64,000 bases of DNA, taken from NCBI RefSeq assembly GCF_900111585.1, contig NZ_FOHI01000005.1:1-64000 (forward strand), in the 5' to 3' direction. Every line of letters starts with the position of its first letter. Positions within the stretch are counted from its first letter, which is position 1. The position numbers were made by a program, and so were the translations under genes. This DNA is from Nitrosospira multiformis (lineage in GTDB: Bacteria > Pseudomonadota > Gammaproteobacteria > Burkholderiales > Nitrosomonadaceae). Below are positions 4,913-62,271 of this stretch, one piece after another. Under the pieces are notes generated by a model. The model worked only from the letters and a program-made list of their open reading frames with translations. It was not told where the DNA came from and searched no databases.

Positions 4913-5301
4913 CGCTGCCCGTAGATCTCTTCGGGATTCTTGATGACGGGTTCGGTCACCAGCCACTGACCCTGTTCCAGTTTTTTGAAAAAGCAATGAT
5001 GTCTGCCGGTATGACAAGCAACCCCTCCGACTTGTTCCACTACCAGCAGCAGGACGTCCTCATCACAATCCAGCCGGATTTCTTTCACTTTCTGCACGTG
5101 CCCGGATTCTTCACCTTTATGCCAGAGTTTTTTGCGCGAGCGTGACCAGTAATGGGCCTCCCCCGTTTGCACCGTAAGCCTCAATGCCTCGGGGTTCATC
5201 CAGGCCACCATCAATACCTTATTGCTGGTTACATCCTGTGTCACGACCGGCACTAATCCGTTCGCCGACCAGTTCACCTTGTTGAGCCATGTATCAGACA
5301 T
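4909..5301 (-). CDS. hisI: Phosphoribosyl-AMP cyclohydrolase
   Basis: HisI opens the adenine ring of phosphoribosyl-AMP, step three of the pathway. The 130-residue protein has the metal-binding sites DCDEDVLLL and [12 protein letters not shown], which hold the conserved Asp and Cys residues for Mg and Zn, plus [10 protein letters not shown] near the N terminus. It sits 30 bp downstream of hisF and overlaps hisE by four bases, so it belongs to the same transcript. Confidence 0.95.
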
Positions 5302-5331
5302 GAATATGCCGAAGTTTGATTGATCCTGTTA

Positions 5332-11209: not shown

Positions 11210-11893
11210 TCAGGTCGCTGCTCCAAGGGGGTAAGGAGATAGAGGCGTAAGGGGGATAATTGCAGCCGAGAAGGCTTCCAGCATCGGTTGTATTGCCCGG
11301 CGTTTCAATTTCAACGCGGCCTGATTGATGATCAGCCGCGATGAGATCGGCATTATTTCTTCGACAGCCTTGAGATTGTTCGCTTTAAGCGTATTACCGC
11401 TTGAAACCAGATCCACGATTGCGTCCGCCAAACCTACCAGGGGAGCAAGCTCCATTGATCCATAGAGCTTGATGAGATCGACATGCATCCCTTTTTCCGC
11501 AAAGTGTTCACGCGCCGTCTGTAGATACTTGGTAGCCACTCGCACCCGGGCGCCGCGCCGGACTGCGGATTCGTAGTCAAAATCGCTGCGTACAGCCACC
11601 ATCATGCGGCAGCGGGCGATATTCAAATCGAGAGGTTGATAGAGCCCCGCGCCGCCATGCTCCAGCAGCACATCCTTTCCCGCGATGCCCATGTCCGCCG
11701 CGCCATATTGCACATAGGTCGGTACATCCGAAGCACGCACGATGATGAGCCGCACATCGTCGCGATTGGTGGCAAGGATCAGCTTGCGTGATCTTTCGGG
11801 GTCGTCCAGCGGGATAATTCCCGCGGCTTTCAGCAGGGGTGCGGTATCGTCAAAAATCCGTCCCTTGGAAAGGGCGATGGTGATGCTCGTCAT
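11210..11893 (-). CDS. hisG: ATP phosphoribosyltransferase, short form
   Basis: HisG commits ATP and PRPP to histidine synthesis and begins the operon. I start it at the ATG at 11891-11893 ([17 protein letters not shown]), because that matches the family N terminus; a frame 13 codons longer has no support. At 227 residues it lacks the C-terminal regulatory domain of the long form. Short HisG proteins need HisZ, a HisRS-like partner, for activity and feedback control; hisZ is not in this window. The conserved signature [14 protein letters not shown] is present near residue 166. Confidence 0.94.
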
Positions 11894-12354
11894 GAAGAAT
11901 GCGCAAAGGCTGTATTTTACCGCAAAAGTCATCGAGCCGGTTTGCCCGACAATTCAAGGACGAATGACAATCCCGGGATTCCAGCAGCAGGCTCCTGAAA
12001 ATGACTTTGGGAAGCAGGAAAATGACGTCAGCAAGTCAGGATTTCCGGAATTGCCAGACAAGATGAGATTCCGATGAGATGTGGATGAAGTACCAGCGCA
12101 CTTGCCAAGATTCGGCTCACGATAACTTGTTCACAATTTCTTCACAAAACCACAACATTTGATTCACATATTCATAACGTATACTTCACATCTGCATCAC
12201 AAGTGCATCACATATTGTTCACAATATGTTCACGCTTCGTGGGGCCCGTTGCAAACAAGTACAAAATTCAACGTCAATACAACAAGAAAGCGAACTGTAA
12301 ATGTCAGTACTACCGGAAGCAAGTAACAGAGTCAACACAATTGTATCAAGGGGA
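11894..12354. promoter_or_regulatory. Divergent control region between hisG and the outer-membrane protein gene
   Basis: About 460 bp separate the hisG start from the likely start of the next gene on the other strand, and no gene is evident. The half nearer hisG (11894-12120) shows no obvious structure. The half nearer the outer-membrane protein gene is AT-rich and filled with the phased repeat array described separately. I could not identify a confident -35/-10 pair for either gene. Confidence 0.5.
12130..12239 (+). repeat. Ten phased 11-bp units with TTCACA core (probable operator array)
   Basis: Reading every 11 bases from 12130, the units begin TTCACA (12130), TTCACA (12141), ACAACA (12152), TTCACA (12163), ATAACG (12174), TTCACA (12185), ATCACA (12196), ATCACA (12207), TTCACA (12218) and TTCACG (12229). 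Eight of ten keep the pattern WTCACR and the last five are uninterrupted. The five bases after each core are AT-rich but variable. A hexamer-N5-hexamer direct repeat with 11-bp pitch is the layout bound by OmpR/PhoB-family response regulators. This many tandem sites is unusual. The array lies 115 bp upstream of the likely start of the outer-membrane protein gene. Confidence 0.75.
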
Positions 12355-13425
12355 ATGAAGAAGTATCTGCGCCTTTGTCTGTTTCTCGGCGCCGCCTTTA
12401 TGTCATCCAACGCGCTGGCGCTGGCGCAAACAGAAGACGAGCTCAGGAGGAAACTGGAACTGCTGGAGGCGAGAATCGCTGAGCTGGAAGGACGACTGGA
12501 GAATCAGGAGGCTCAGGACGTGCGTGGCAAGGGGCATCATGGGGGCGTGAATCTGAAGAGGTCTCCGTCCTCTGGCGCTGCGCATCCAGCCTTTGCGCAA
12601 ACCGAGGGCGAGCCCAGGAAATCCGAAGCCAAGGAGATCAAAGAAGCCAACGTGGCGCATATGAAGGGGCATGCAGAAGGCGGATGGCAGGCTGCTCATG
12701 ACAAAGATCATGGCTTCGACAAGGAGAAATTTCACGGTGGCGTGACCTTGAAGCAGGATGCGTTCTTTGGTTTCCAGACCATACTCGATGCTGGTTATGA
12801 AGTTGCCGACAACATCGACTTCACCTTCTACAGCTGGCTTTGGACAAGTCCCAACTTCGGCCGCAGCCGGGTAATCGCCGGACCTAACGGCATGCAGGTG
12901 GACGCAGGTGGTAACGGGTTATGGACTGAAGTCGGAATGGGTTTGAATTTTCGCCTTTTCAATGACACATTGAGCATCAATCCGCAGTTCGGTATTCTCA
13001 ACGGCGCGTTGCTTTCCAGCCGGATTGTCGGCAGAGGCATTCGCGCTGGCGAAGGCATAGTGCCGAGCATCACCTTCAACTATGACAACGGATTTTTTAC
13101 CGGGCAGGCGTATCTTGCTTACTACGCCGCTATTCGTGACGAGCGCGCCAGGGACTTCATCCATAACTGGATCAACGTCGGTGTCAAGCCGGCGCTGTTC
13201 AATTTCAAAAATGTCCCGATCAATTCTATCGGAGTTCACTGGGAGCACCTGCGATTCCACGTAGACCGGATTGAAGGCAATCCCGGTACGCTCTACAACT
13301 GGATCGGCCCTTACGTCGAGTTTGCACTACCCATGCATCTCGCCCTGCGCTTCGCCGCTGGCGCCGATCTCAAGGGTGAAGTATCCAATGAGTTCTATCA
13401 GGCCAGCATCAAGATGCATTTTTAA
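12355..13425 (+). CDS. Predicted outer-membrane beta-barrel protein with coiled-coil N terminus
   Basis: The start at 12355 (MKKYLRLCLFLGAAFMSS) gives a standard signal peptide ending near ALA; an in-frame ATG at 12301 would add 18 residues and cannot be excluded. After the signal comes a coiled coil (DELRRKLELLEARIAELE) and a His-rich linker. The linker seems duplicated: AQTEDELRRK and HHGGVNLK recur as AQTEGEPRKS and FHGGVTLK. The remaining 230 or so residues alternate polar and aromatic residues as beta strands and end in KMHF; a terminal Phe is the signature of barrel insertion by BAM. I do not recognise the family or substrate. The phased repeat array upstream suggests strong, regulated expression. 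Confidence 0.75.
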   Translation: MKKYLRLCLFLGAAFMSSNALALAQTEDELRRKLELLEARIAELEGRLENQEAQDVRGKGHHGGVNLKRSPSSGAAHPAFAQTEGEPRKSEAKEIKEANVAHMKGHAEGGWQAAHDKDHGFDKEKFHGGVTLKQDAFFGFQTILDAGYEVADNIDFTFYSWLWTSPNFGRSRVIAGPNGMQVDAGGNGLWTEVGMGLNFRLFNDTLSINPQFGILNGALLSSRIVGRGIRAGEGIVPSITFNYDNGFFTGQAYLAYYAAIRDERARDFIHNWINVGVKPALFNFKNVPINSIGVHWEHLRFHVDRIEGNPGTLYNWIGPYVEFALPMHLALRFAAGADLKGEVSNEFYQASIKMHF

Positions 13426-13467: not shown

Positions 13468-14121
13468 ATGAAGCAGAAGCTGGAGCATCTCACAAGCTCG
13501 GAATTGCGAGCCTTGATAGTGGAACTGCGGCCGCTGGAGGTGTGCGATCTGGTGGAGCGTGAACATCAGGTACTGGCTACGCGGCAGATGCTCGAATCCT
13601 TGTCGGAACAACTGCGGCACGCCAAAACGGAAGCAAAGGCGGCTCACCGGCAGTTATGCAGCTGGCGCCTGTCTCACCCGTTTCGCACACGACTGCATGA
13701 TCTGGGATGGATGCCTTCCAGATTTCTTGCGGAGCGCGAGTCGAGCAAATCTGCATCGGAGACGGAAGTGCGGCAATTGACCGAGCGTGTTTATCTTGCT
13801 GCCGAGCATGTCAAAAAAATAGAGTGTGAGGCGGAGGCGCGGATTCAGTTGGAACAGGCGCCGGTAAGGGAGCGCATTGCCGAGTTGGAATACCTGTGGC
13901 AGAAGAGGGTTGCCCAGGAACAGATGGAGCGGAAGCAGACGCAGGAACCAGCCAGCAACCTGTCGCCATTCATGATGCACAAGCTCAGGCGGGAGATGAA
14001 GACACAGGACCCTCATCCTGCGGAGGCTGGCCGCACTTCCGCCGACTCATCCCACAATACCGGTACAGTGGCTAAACCGAGAGAGTTCCGGAAGGTGGTC
14101 AGCAGGGTAGGCAAAGGATAG
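13468..14121 (+). CDS. Hypothetical coiled-coil protein
   Basis: This 217-residue protein has no signal peptide or membrane span. It is rich in Glu, Arg, Gln and Ala and is predicted to be mostly helical, with heptad-like stretches at about 30-60 and 90-150 (for example RIAELEYLWQKRVAQEQM). The C-terminal 50 residues are polar and probably disordered. It starts 42 bp after the outer-membrane protein and the A-rich stretch CAGGAAAAAA before its ATG could serve as ribosome binding site, so the two may share a transcript. I do not recognise the family. Confidence 0.65.
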   Translation: MKQKLEHLTSSELRALIVELRPLEVCDLVEREHQVLATRQMLESLSEQLRHAKTEAKAAHRQLCSWRLSHPFRTRLHDLGWMPSRFLAERESSKSASETEVRQLTERVYLAAEHVKKIECEAEARIQLEQAPVRERIAELEYLWQKRVAQEQMERKQTQEPASNLSPFMMHKLRREMKTQDPHPAEAGRTSADSSHNTGTVAKPREFRKVVSRVGKG

Positions 14122-26405: not shown

Positions 26406-27305
26406 ATGCCTGCCTCTGCCGGTTCCCGTTTTCGCGCAGCGCTTGACGCGGAAAAGCCCCTGCAGATCGCGGGCTGCATCAATGCATATGCCGCTCGCAT
26501 GGCGGAGCGTGCCGGCTTCAGGGCACTGTATCTCTCGGGTGGGGGAGTGGCTGCGGCATCCCTCGGAGTACCCGATCTTGCCATTTCCACCCTTGATGAT
26601 GTGCTGGTCGATGTACGGCGCATTACCGATATCACGGACCTGCCGTTGTTGGTGGACGCGGATACCGGTTTTGGCGGTGTTCTCAATATCGGCCGTACTG
26701 TGAAGTCATTGATAAAAGCCGGGGCCGCTGCGCTCCATATCGAAGATCAGGTGCAGATCAAGCGTTGCGGTCACCTTCCCGGCAAGGCTGTGGTCAGTGA
26801 AATGGAAATGGTGGAACGGATCGGCGCTGCGGTGGATGCAAGAATCGATCCCGCTTTCGTCATCATGGCGCGTACGGATGCACTCGCGGTGGAGGGACTG
26901 CAAGCCGCCATTGATCGGGCCTGTACTTATGTGGAGGCGGGTGCAGACATGATCTTCCCCGAGGCCGTGACTGACCTGCAAACCTACCGGCGGTTTGCGG
27001 CAGCGGTCAAGGTGCCCATTCTGGCCAACATCACGGAATTCGGCGCAACTCCCCTCTACACAGTCGAGGAGTTGGCCGGGGCAGATGTTTCCCTGGTGCT
27101 TTATCCACTTTCCGCATTTCGAGCCATGAGTGCCGCTGCGTTGAATGTATATCGAACAATACGCGCGGAAGGCTCGCAAAAAAGCGCGCTCCCGAGCATG
27201 CAGACCCGTGCCGAGTTGTATGAATTTCTCGACTACCATGCCTATGATGAGAAACTGAATCTTCTGTTCAAGCCCGAAAAACCGGAAGAACCTGAAAATG
27301 AATAA
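26406..27305 (+). CDS. prpB: 2-methylisocitrate lyase
   Basis: PrpB splits 2-methylisocitrate to pyruvate and succinate in the methylcitrate cycle. I start it at 26406 ([13 protein letters not shown]); the open frame extends back into mdh but this start gives the usual 299-residue length. The lyase motifs are present: [25 protein letters not shown] with metal-binding Asp, [16 protein letters not shown] with the catalytic Cys, and [10 protein letters not shown]. The CGHLPGK loop is slightly closer to isocitrate lyase than the usual CGHRPNK of PrpB, but its neighbour prpC supports the assignment. Confidence 0.92.
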
Positions 27306-27327
27306 ACCTGAAAATGAATAAACCTGA
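27291..27327 (+). repeat. 16-bp tandem duplication at the prpB/prpC junction
   Basis: CCTGAAAATGAATAAA occurs at 27291-27306 and again at 27307-27322, followed by a partial third copy (CCTGA). Both copies contain an ATG. The first (27298-27300) opens an eight-codon frame that ends in the second copy; the second (27314) is the start of prpC. Without the duplication, the prpC ATG would overlap the prpB stop. Confidence 0.9.
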
Positions 27328-40133: not shown

Positions 40134-40748
40134 ATGGGTATCACTCTCGTCAGGCGCGCAATAGTCCTGATCAGTCTGGTCGGTGATTTGGCCGGCTGCA
40201 CCGTTTTCTCTCCTCGCTATCAGATCACCCATCGTTACGAACCGCCAACTGATCCGGCAGGCATCGTTTGTCTTGAAAAATGCATGCAAAAGCTGGAGAT
40301 GTGCCAGCAAAACTGTCAATCGACATATCAGGCCTGCCTGAAGCGCATCGAACCCCTGGCGGAAGAGAGATATAGAAAAGCAGCCGAGCGTTATGACGAT
40401 GAGCTTGATACATATCGTCGGCGGATGCAGTTCGGATACCCTGGCTGGGGACGCACCACGCTGGGCTGGGGGTGGGGGGGATACCCATGGGGTTGGGGTG
40501 GCTATCCCGGGGGGTGGGGTTCTCCATGGGGCTGGGGAGGAGGGCCTTATTATGGCTTGGGCTACTCGTCTCCTTTTTTCTACCAACCGCCTCCCCTCAG
40601 GCCGAATCGTATGCGGGAATTTGATCGGCTGCGCTACCAGCAGTGTGAAGTGGAATGCGGTTGTCAGTCGGTGCAGGATGCCTGTTTTCTAGGCTGCGGT
40701 GGCAGGAAAATCATAGAAGAGAGATGTATAGCAAACTGTCCAAAGTGA
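40134..40748 (+). CDS. Cysteine-rich lipoprotein with Trp/Gly repeats
   Basis: The start at 40134 (MGITLVRRAIVLISLVG) has GGAAG upstream and gives a lipoprotein signal ending DLAGC near residue 22. The 204-residue product has two Cys clusters: CLEKCMQKLEMCQQNC with further CxxxxxxC, and a C-terminal cluster CEVECGCQSVQDACFLGC then CIANC. These Cys pairs are spaced three or six apart, suggesting disulfides or metal sites. Between them lies a Gly/Trp/Tyr-rich segment with repeats of WGWGGYP. I do not recognise the family; an outer-membrane location is inferred from the signal. Confidence 0.75.
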   Translation: MGITLVRRAIVLISLVGDLAGCTVFSPRYQITHRYEPPTDPAGIVCLEKCMQKLEMCQQNCQSTYQACLKRIEPLAEERYRKAAERYDDELDTYRRRMQFGYPGWGRTTLGWGWGGYPWGWGGYPGGWGSPWGWGGGPYYGLGYSSPFFYQPPPLRPNRMREFDRLRYQQCEVECGCQSVQDACFLGCGGRKIIEERCIANCPK

Positions 40749-61272: not shown

Positions 61273-62271
61273 TCAAAGACTGGCCTCACGCTTGAGCAAT
61301 TCTTCGATCTGGACTCCCACCTCCGGCTGGCCGTTAAAAACTGTGCCAAGCTTCTTCTTGTTCAGGTGGTCCAGGTTAGTGGTGTAAGCTTGAGCCGGCA
61401 GCGGAAAGTATTTGACTTCCTTTACCAGAGGCGATGCATTTTTCATATAGAATTCAAGAAATTCCCTAACCTCGGGTTTTTCCGTCGCCTTGATGCTGAT
61501 GTAAATGAAAATCGGGCGAGACAATGGTTGGTAGCTTCCATCCTCCACCGTTTCAACCGATGGGATAATACCGCCTTTGCCTCCATCAACAGCGAGCGCC
61601 CTAAGCTTTTTCTGATTTTCGTTGTAGTAGGCGAAGCCAAAATACCCGAGTGCGTTTTTATCGCTCGCTACCCCCTGTACCAGCACGTTGTCGTCTTCGG
61701 AAGCGGTGAAATCCCCCCGGCTCGACTTGGCCTTTCCAACAATGGCTTCCGTAAAGTAATCAAAGGTGCCGGAATCTGCTCCCGGGCCGTAAAGTTTTAT
61801 CGGTTCATCCGGCCATGCCGGGTTTACCTGCTTCCAACTGGTTATTCTCCCTTGGGCGTCGGGTTCCTAAATCTTCTTCAAATCTGCAACAGTAATGACT
61901 TTAACCCAATCATTTCTAGGATTTGCCACGACCGTCAATGCATCGTACGCCACTGGCATTTCAACGTATTGCACCCCGGCAGCTTTACATGCGTCCATTT
62001 CTTTTTTCAGGATAGGACGCGAAGCATTGGCGATGTCTATCTCACCGCGGCAAAATTTCTTGAAGCCTCCTCCCGTGCCTGAAATACCAACTGTGACTTT
62101 AGCGGCACCCTTCTTGGCTATTTGAAAATCTTCCGCCACCGCCTCGGTAATGGGAAAAACAGTGCTGGAACCGTCAATTTTTATAACCGGCTCAGCATAC
62201 ACAGGGCTGACAGCACCAAGCAGTGCGCCCAATACCACTACTACTATCTCAATACGCATCAATTTCAGCAT
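61273..62271 (-). pseudogene. pstS: pstS interrupted by an in-frame amber codon
   Basis: PstS is the periplasmic phosphate-binding protein of the high-affinity ABC importer. A signal peptide ([19 protein letters not shown]) and the mature start [19 protein letters not shown] are followed by the phosphate-binding region [20 protein letters not shown]. At 61867-61869 a TAG stands where the family normally has Trp, between ADLKKI and EPDAQG. The frame then continues unbroken through KLYGPGADSGTFDYF and GYFGFAYYNENQKK to a stop at 61273-61275, giving 332 codons, the normal PstS length. AGGAGA precedes the ATG. This is a single-base nonsense change (TGG to TAG), suppression, or a sequencing error. 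Confidence 0.88.

Follow-up and report, generated by a model that had tools for sequence, protein, structure and literature searches.

The window, which is the whole 64,000-nucleotide stretch of Nitrosospira multiformis DNA analysed here, comes from a draft assembly of 21 contigs (3.2 Mb) and carries, at 12130..12239 on the plus strand, a proposed operator array of ten phased 11-bp units built on the hexamer TTCACA. Read in register from 12130, the units are TTCACA, TTCACA, ACAACA, TTCACA, ATAACG, TTCACA, ATCACA, ATCACA, TTCACA, and TTCACG. The first-pass annotation had described ten 11-bp units, eight of them WTCACR and the last five in an unbroken run of WTCACR, and this description is exact. 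The ten-unit phased score of the array is 51/60, compared with a best of 34 in 500 random sequences (first-order, local AT-rich model), 32 in 20 random sequences of the whole-window model, and 28 on the minus strand of the window. When the pitch was varied from 6 to 23, the five-unit score was 27 at 11 and 28 at 22 and lay between 14 and 18 at all other values; 11 bp and its multiple 22 are thus the sole favoured pitches. The array is absent from the output of Tandem Repeats Finder (minimum score 30), presumably because the likeness between units is limited to the hexamers. Two unrelated short tandem repeats, with periods of 16 bp and 21 bp, were reported by the same program at 27289-27327 and 40468-40520 of the window.

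A spacer or leader (12240..12354, plus strand) separates the array from the DUF6733 gene (12355..13425, plus strand), the proposed main target. The open reading frame starts at 12355, with an alternative upstream ATG at 12301, and its product has a signal-peptide-like start (by eye), an N-terminal helix, and a DUF6733 domain (PF20507, E 1e-56); it matches three N. multiformis records at 92-99%. Structure prediction gave the N-terminal helix and 13 strands with low confidence (mean pLDDT 44.9), and "barrel" appears to be a reasonable, if unproven, label for the protein. The next gene (13468..14121, plus strand) encodes a protein of 217 aa, without an assigned function, that has a 38%-identical counterpart behind a paralogous DUF6733 gene on contig C12. 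On the other side, the divergent his-operon gene (11210..11932, minus strand), which from its sequence we take to be hisG, starts about 200 bp from the array and is a possible but unsupported second target. The C12 paralogue (71% identical) also has an array upstream, of seven units, so that the two-gene unit is present twice in this genome with an array before both copies; no his genes lie beside the C12 array, which favours the barrel gene as the target. A phosphate-type porin gene near the end of the window has as its neighbour a pstS-like frame (61444-62187) that is broken by an internal stop in this assembly; a second pstS-type gene, on C10, has no internal stop.

The DUF6733 gene was found in nine of the 41 genomes searched, this one included, and the array is kept upstream of it in all nine, with 10, 10, 10, 13, 10, 6+4, 9, 8+4, and 3 units (counts that include some degenerate units). 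The check proposed for relatives, in which absence of the pattern from the orthologous region would have told against the direct-repeat reading, therefore comes out in favour of that reading. It had also been claimed that ten units are exceptional; the count is indeed high, but it is not unique, as the arrays of orthologues go up to 13 units when in a single phase and to 8+4 when split over two. The 13-unit array (genome G008, stretch L036, -262 to -125 of the gene) shows repeated unit pairs of 22 bp by eye, which suggests that it grew by duplication of unit pairs.

Distribution of the motif and the genes behind it

A three-unit pattern with up to three mismatches gave 23 matches in the N. multiformis genome and none for the reversed control, where neighbouring matches within one array overlap and were counted as such. 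These recurrences lie mostly before genes and less at random sites, so that the other objection foreseen, the same array at many unrelated, non-promoter sites, does not hold either. A survey of 61 genomes (three units, up to two mismatches, overlapping matches included), with the reversed pattern as control, gave 142 matches against 5 for the 23 genomes of the same genus, 30 against 3 for the 14 remaining genomes of the family, and 2 against 1 for the 24 genomes from other families. Nearly all occurrences of the array motif thus belong to a single family of ammonia oxidisers. Across 86 arrays (395 units), the hexamer composition is T.78, T.93, C.75, A.99, C.96, and A.93, with A/T-rich spacers; these values are descriptive, since the arrays were picked by their TTCACA match, the genomes are related, and the array at C12:118951 entered via two overlapping loci. 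Upstream of genes, the half-sites of the arrays follow one another head to tail at a spacing of about one helical turn, and the proposed direct-repeat layout of OmpR/PhoB-family operators is supported by this recurrence and by the nine orthologous arrays.

The genes behind the arrays were surveyed in 60 stretches around listed matches (one outside the family) and ten stretches of the N. multiformis genome, a set that leaves out the arrays of G010, G020, G023, G042, G045, G048, and G051. Targets were identified from evident sequence similarity, and single members were checked against Pfam. Among the matches listed, a BBP2-type porin gene stands behind arrays in ten genomes, amoC in six, a gene for a His-rich secreted protein in six, a gene for a small coiled-coil secreted protein in five, and a SulP permease gene in three, while for many other array stretches no clear target was named by a simple ORF search. 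In the N. multiformis draft, one of the three amoC copies found has an array; this copy is solitary, and an ABC transporter gene comes next. Three triples or arrays, namely the TCCACA triple at C9:240522 (near a ribonucleotide-reductase-like gene), C14:507426 (inside an ORF), and C16:4854, were dropped from the targets as probable chance occurrences or other motifs, and those at C14:229667, C15:4835, and C7:15952 were retained with uncertain targets.

The small coiled-coil secreted proteins, whose motif is KSYLYGRQAQDL-like, form a multi-copy family and are often encoded behind arrays or beside array genes. Examples are L043:4398-6315, L048:4431-4871, and an ORF on the minus strand of L049 behind a four-unit array; the three proteins of this family that were scanned had no Pfam match. 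Between a five-unit array and amoC in L046 lies a very short ORF (5041-5320), whose start resembles this family by eye, as if it were a decayed copy. In the Nitrosomonas-like genus g3, arrays of 4-9 units are inverted just before ORFs for membrane-like proteins of 64-72 aa in five stretches (L199, L200, L201, L202, and L203), and array orientation is therefore not fixed; the one such protein scanned had no Pfam match.

With regard to promoter geometry, 59 distinct downstream sequences were compared, and 12 of them have the element TANNNT at offset 10 from the last unit, compared with six or fewer at any other offset. By inspection, these twelve promoters belong to ten porin-type and two SulP genes, and the hexamer is often TGTTACGTT. 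A TANNNT element 10 nt past the last unit fits activation by a regulator bound next to RNA polymerase. The spacer in the window has no such -10 element at the fixed offset of the porin-type promoters, so that activation at this promoter is only putative.

The repeats might instead be a neutral or structural tandem repeat, such as a slippage product or a DNA-bending element, that serves as no operator. The number of units does vary among orthologues, and the repeated unit pairs of the 13-unit array would suit such an origin. However, it is the hexamer that is repeated, with the spacer free to vary (a composition towards which the choice of arrays by TTCACA match leans), the reversed patterns give almost no matches, and in many genomes the arrays precede genes of the same kinds, all of which makes a neutral repeat hardly credible.

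Candidate regulators in the genome

Three intact OmpR-family regulators are encoded in the N. multiformis genome: PhoB (with PhoR), a CpxR-like protein (C21:59174-59869), and a protein designated P0005 (C12:94424-95107), which is encoded with a membrane histidine kinase and is the candidate ColR-type response regulator. A fourth OmpR-family match is a frame with two stops. PhoB and PhoR score above their equivalog cut-offs, and the CpxR-like protein and P0005 fall below every cut-off listed.

Among 37 genomes of the family, 28 have both P0005 and an array, two have P0005 alone, one has an array alone, and six have neither; in other words, arrays accompany P0005 in 28 of its 30 carriers and occur in one of the seven non-carriers. 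Genus g3 is split, with three genomes having both and two having neither, so that it agrees in all five. Fisher p values against arrays were 8e-5 for P0005, 0.036 for the CpxR-like protein, and 1 for PhoB, which are optimistic since kinship is ignored; the genomes being related, the co-occurrence counts exceed the number of independent events. The two carriers without a three-unit array at the threshold are G002 (80% complete) and G004, which has two-unit pairs near its regulator, and the genome with arrays and no P0005 match is G018, a 93% complete draft. Of the three intact regulators, only P0005 tracks the arrays.

PhoB could bind the array as a diverged Pho box, in which case the DUF6733 gene would encode a phosphate-starvation outer-membrane protein. 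The genome does encode both PhoB and PhoR, the spacing fits an OmpR-family protein, and a porin gene and the pstS-like frame are present at the end of the window. The Pho box, CTGTCAT-N4-CTGTCAT, shares the 11-bp direct-repeat architecture of the array and differs from it in the hexamer, which here is TTCACA. An 11/14 match to CTGTCAT repeats is found about 90 bp upstream of the phosphate porin gene, but this match is weak, since the stretches concerned hold two further matches of this kind. Against a role for PhoB, no TTCACA pair of at least 12 bits was detected in three stretches around phoB, a pstS, and the phosphate porin gene, and the distribution of PhoB does not follow the arrays, as it occurs in 36 of the 37 family genomes, including all six that have neither arrays nor P0005. 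It had been noted at the outset that TTCACA is not the Pho-box sequence, which these results uphold, and control by PhoB is very unlikely.

Binding by the CpxR-like protein, as an envelope-stress regulator, would suit the many array targets that look like envelope proteins, and its gene lies about 10 kb from two arrays of the genome. In addition, a CpxR half-site is resembled by the reverse complement of TTTACA. However, an orthologue of this protein (at least 74% identity) is present in only 12 of the 37 family genomes and is missing from 17 of the 29 array-bearing ones, and the matches in G051 and G046 reach only 48% and 35% identity. The CpxR-like protein is thus an extremely unlikely owner of the arrays.

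The arrays may also be compared with the ArcA sites of Escherichia coli. In PMC3798270, these are described as sites of an OmpR-family regulator with 11-bp centre-to-centre repeats, a variable number of elements, and suggested cooperative binding, which resembles the present arrangement, whereas the number of elements given there is two to five. ArcA was not the best model for any of the three intact OmpR-family regulators of the genome.

A probable ColR-type operator and its proposed link to inorganic carbon

One of the closest known counterparts of the arrays is the operator of ColR from Pseudomonas putida. Seven footprinted ColR sites given in PMC2689224 were scored with the array weight matrix, and their best pairs sum to 89.3 bits at pitch 11, compared with -26.9 to 16.4 bits when the pitch is set to 8-10 or 12-14; every site also outscores randomised versions of itself in 961 or more of 1000 comparisons. 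The DNA box of ColRS, with TTCAC-type hexamers in direct repeat at a pitch of 11 bp, is thus shared, and some of the published sites have a third in-phase unit by inspection. According to PMC2689224, an outer-membrane porin is among the ColR targets and the box adjoins the regulator operon. The sites given there differ in having two repeats and a central T-track, whereas the present arrays have 3-13 units and mixed A/T-rich spacers, and the set of targets is also different.

A box beside the regulator and kinase genes is likewise present in the ammonia oxidisers. In N. multiformis, the order is kinase gene, then TTCACGAATTCTTCACA, then dabA (PF10070, E 6e-213). In 25 of the 30 carriers of P0005, the locus was surveyed in stretches of 8-18 kb (two joined by neighbouring stretches), and in 20 of these 25 loci, compared with 0.09 expected from random versions, the first 1 kb after the kinase gene holds a pair on the same strand that scores 15 bits or more. 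In all 20, the box has the kinase on one side and a DabA, SbtA-like, or SulP match on the other. The five loci with no box within 1 kb after the kinase are those of G005, G010, G014, G021, and G024. A carbon-transport or CsoSCA-like (carbonic-anhydrase-like) match, drawn from several protein families, is found in 24 of the 25 loci, the 12-kb stretch of G024 being the one in which no carbon gene was found. These assignments come from Pfam for two DabA, two SulP, one Sbt_1, and one partial CsoSCA_cat, and from local tblastn for the rest, DabB being a putative name.

Homologues of P0005 also occur outside the family. At E 1e-55, they were detected in 15 of 143 class-level genomes (the present one included), and those in other families of the class are 45-55% identical to P0005. 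Fourteen class-level loci were fetched, in which 22 pairs occur at pitch 11 and 3-13 at other pitches, a modest excess. A kinase frame was recognised by a crude gene caller in ten of them, and among these ten non-family loci a TTCAC-type pair directly follows the kinase in four (G096, G137, G153, and G179). Four homologues from the same order (G028, G034, G038, and G055; 47-52% identity) have no three-unit array, and 1, 0, 0, and 2 pairs of 12 bits, respectively, occur near them. Of the two genomes outside the family that gave a three-unit match, G059 has its match about 0.9 kb after the kinase gene.

P0005 is a putative homologue of ColR; the protein comparison covered these homologues and the genome's own regulators, with no protein named ColR among them. 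The receiver domain of P0005 is 57-66% identical to non-family homologues vs 36% to the PhoB of its own genome, and all 12 aligned P0005-type proteins have in common a helix region, SD[TASV]LR[SAT]H, which the genome's own PhoB and CpxR-like protein lack. The DNA-binding domain is 30-40% identical to nine non-family homologues vs 32% to PhoB, so that in these alignments only the receiver and the helix region set P0005 and its homologues apart from PhoB. The ColR-type reading is slightly weakened by this comparison, in which the DNA-binding domain shows no greater likeness to homologues of the FExRE type than it does to PhoB.

In Pseudomonas, the metal signal is reported to be sensed through ColS, whose periplasmic FExRE (ExxE) metal-binding motif is defined in PMC4074579. 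This motif is absent from all five aligned kinases of the family, another point in which the present system differs from ColRS, and a ColS-like metal signal should therefore not be assumed. Among the ten non-family kinases covered by the same test, three carry it (G096, G137, and G131), and two of the four loci with a pair directly after the kinase are those of FExRE kinases.

The same ColR-type system might nevertheless retain its Pseudomonas role, answering excess Zn, Fe3+, Mn, or Cd, or envelope damage, with the carbon-transporter neighbours being incidental. Such a role overlaps with the explanation that we prefer as far as the regulator is concerned: the box agrees with the ColR sites, the P. 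putida system answers Zn, Fe3+, Mn, and Cd through ColS (PMC4074579), and several array targets, the His-rich protein among them, look secreted or outer-membrane. However, the lack of FExRE in the five aligned kinases and the carbon-transport or carbonic-anhydrase-like matches near the regulator in 24 of 25 loci argue against it, and we regard a retained metal or envelope role as rather unlikely, though well short of negligible.

The explanation preferred here is that the array is probably an extended operator for P0005 as a ColR-type regulator, whose regulon would have been enlarged and tied to inorganic-carbon uptake. In such a mechanism, one DNA-binding domain would occupy each 11-bp unit, all on the same face of the helix, and phosphorylated P0005 dimers, arranged head to tail, would fill the array cooperatively as they load. 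How sensitive and how strong the response is at each target would then depend on the number of units and on their quality. P0005 would act as an activator rather than a repressor of outer-membrane channels (the DUF6733 protein and BBP2-type porins), one amoC, and small periplasmic proteins and, in many genomes, of the inorganic-carbon transporters encoded beside its own gene (DabA, SbtA-like, and SulP). Its signal may be tied to inorganic carbon, pH, or the state of the envelope, of which carbon supply or pH is favoured but unproven.

Meaning for ammonia oxidisers

The direct-repeat architecture is already known, and so, probably, is the regulator family. Among the open-access literature matches listed, there was no report of ColR in Nitrosospira or of such a regulon, nor of the long arrays, the target set, the changed sensor, or the linkage to carbon transport. 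It is tentatively proposed, as an idea that we hold open rather than favour outright, that in ammonia oxidisers a ColR-type system could serve as a master switch coupling inorganic-carbon uptake (DabA, SbtA-like, SulP, and carbonic anhydrase), outer-membrane channels, and an extra ammonia-monooxygenase subunit, in which a changed sensor would read CO2/bicarbonate or pH and the response would be graded by arrays of up to about a dozen half-sites. The sensing of carbon supply and its coordination with ammonia oxidation appear to be little worked out in these organisms, and a readable operator code tied to one regulator would provide a testable regulon in 28 genomes. In addition, the 3 to 13 units found before the same gene would offer a natural dose series on the effect of extra half-sites.
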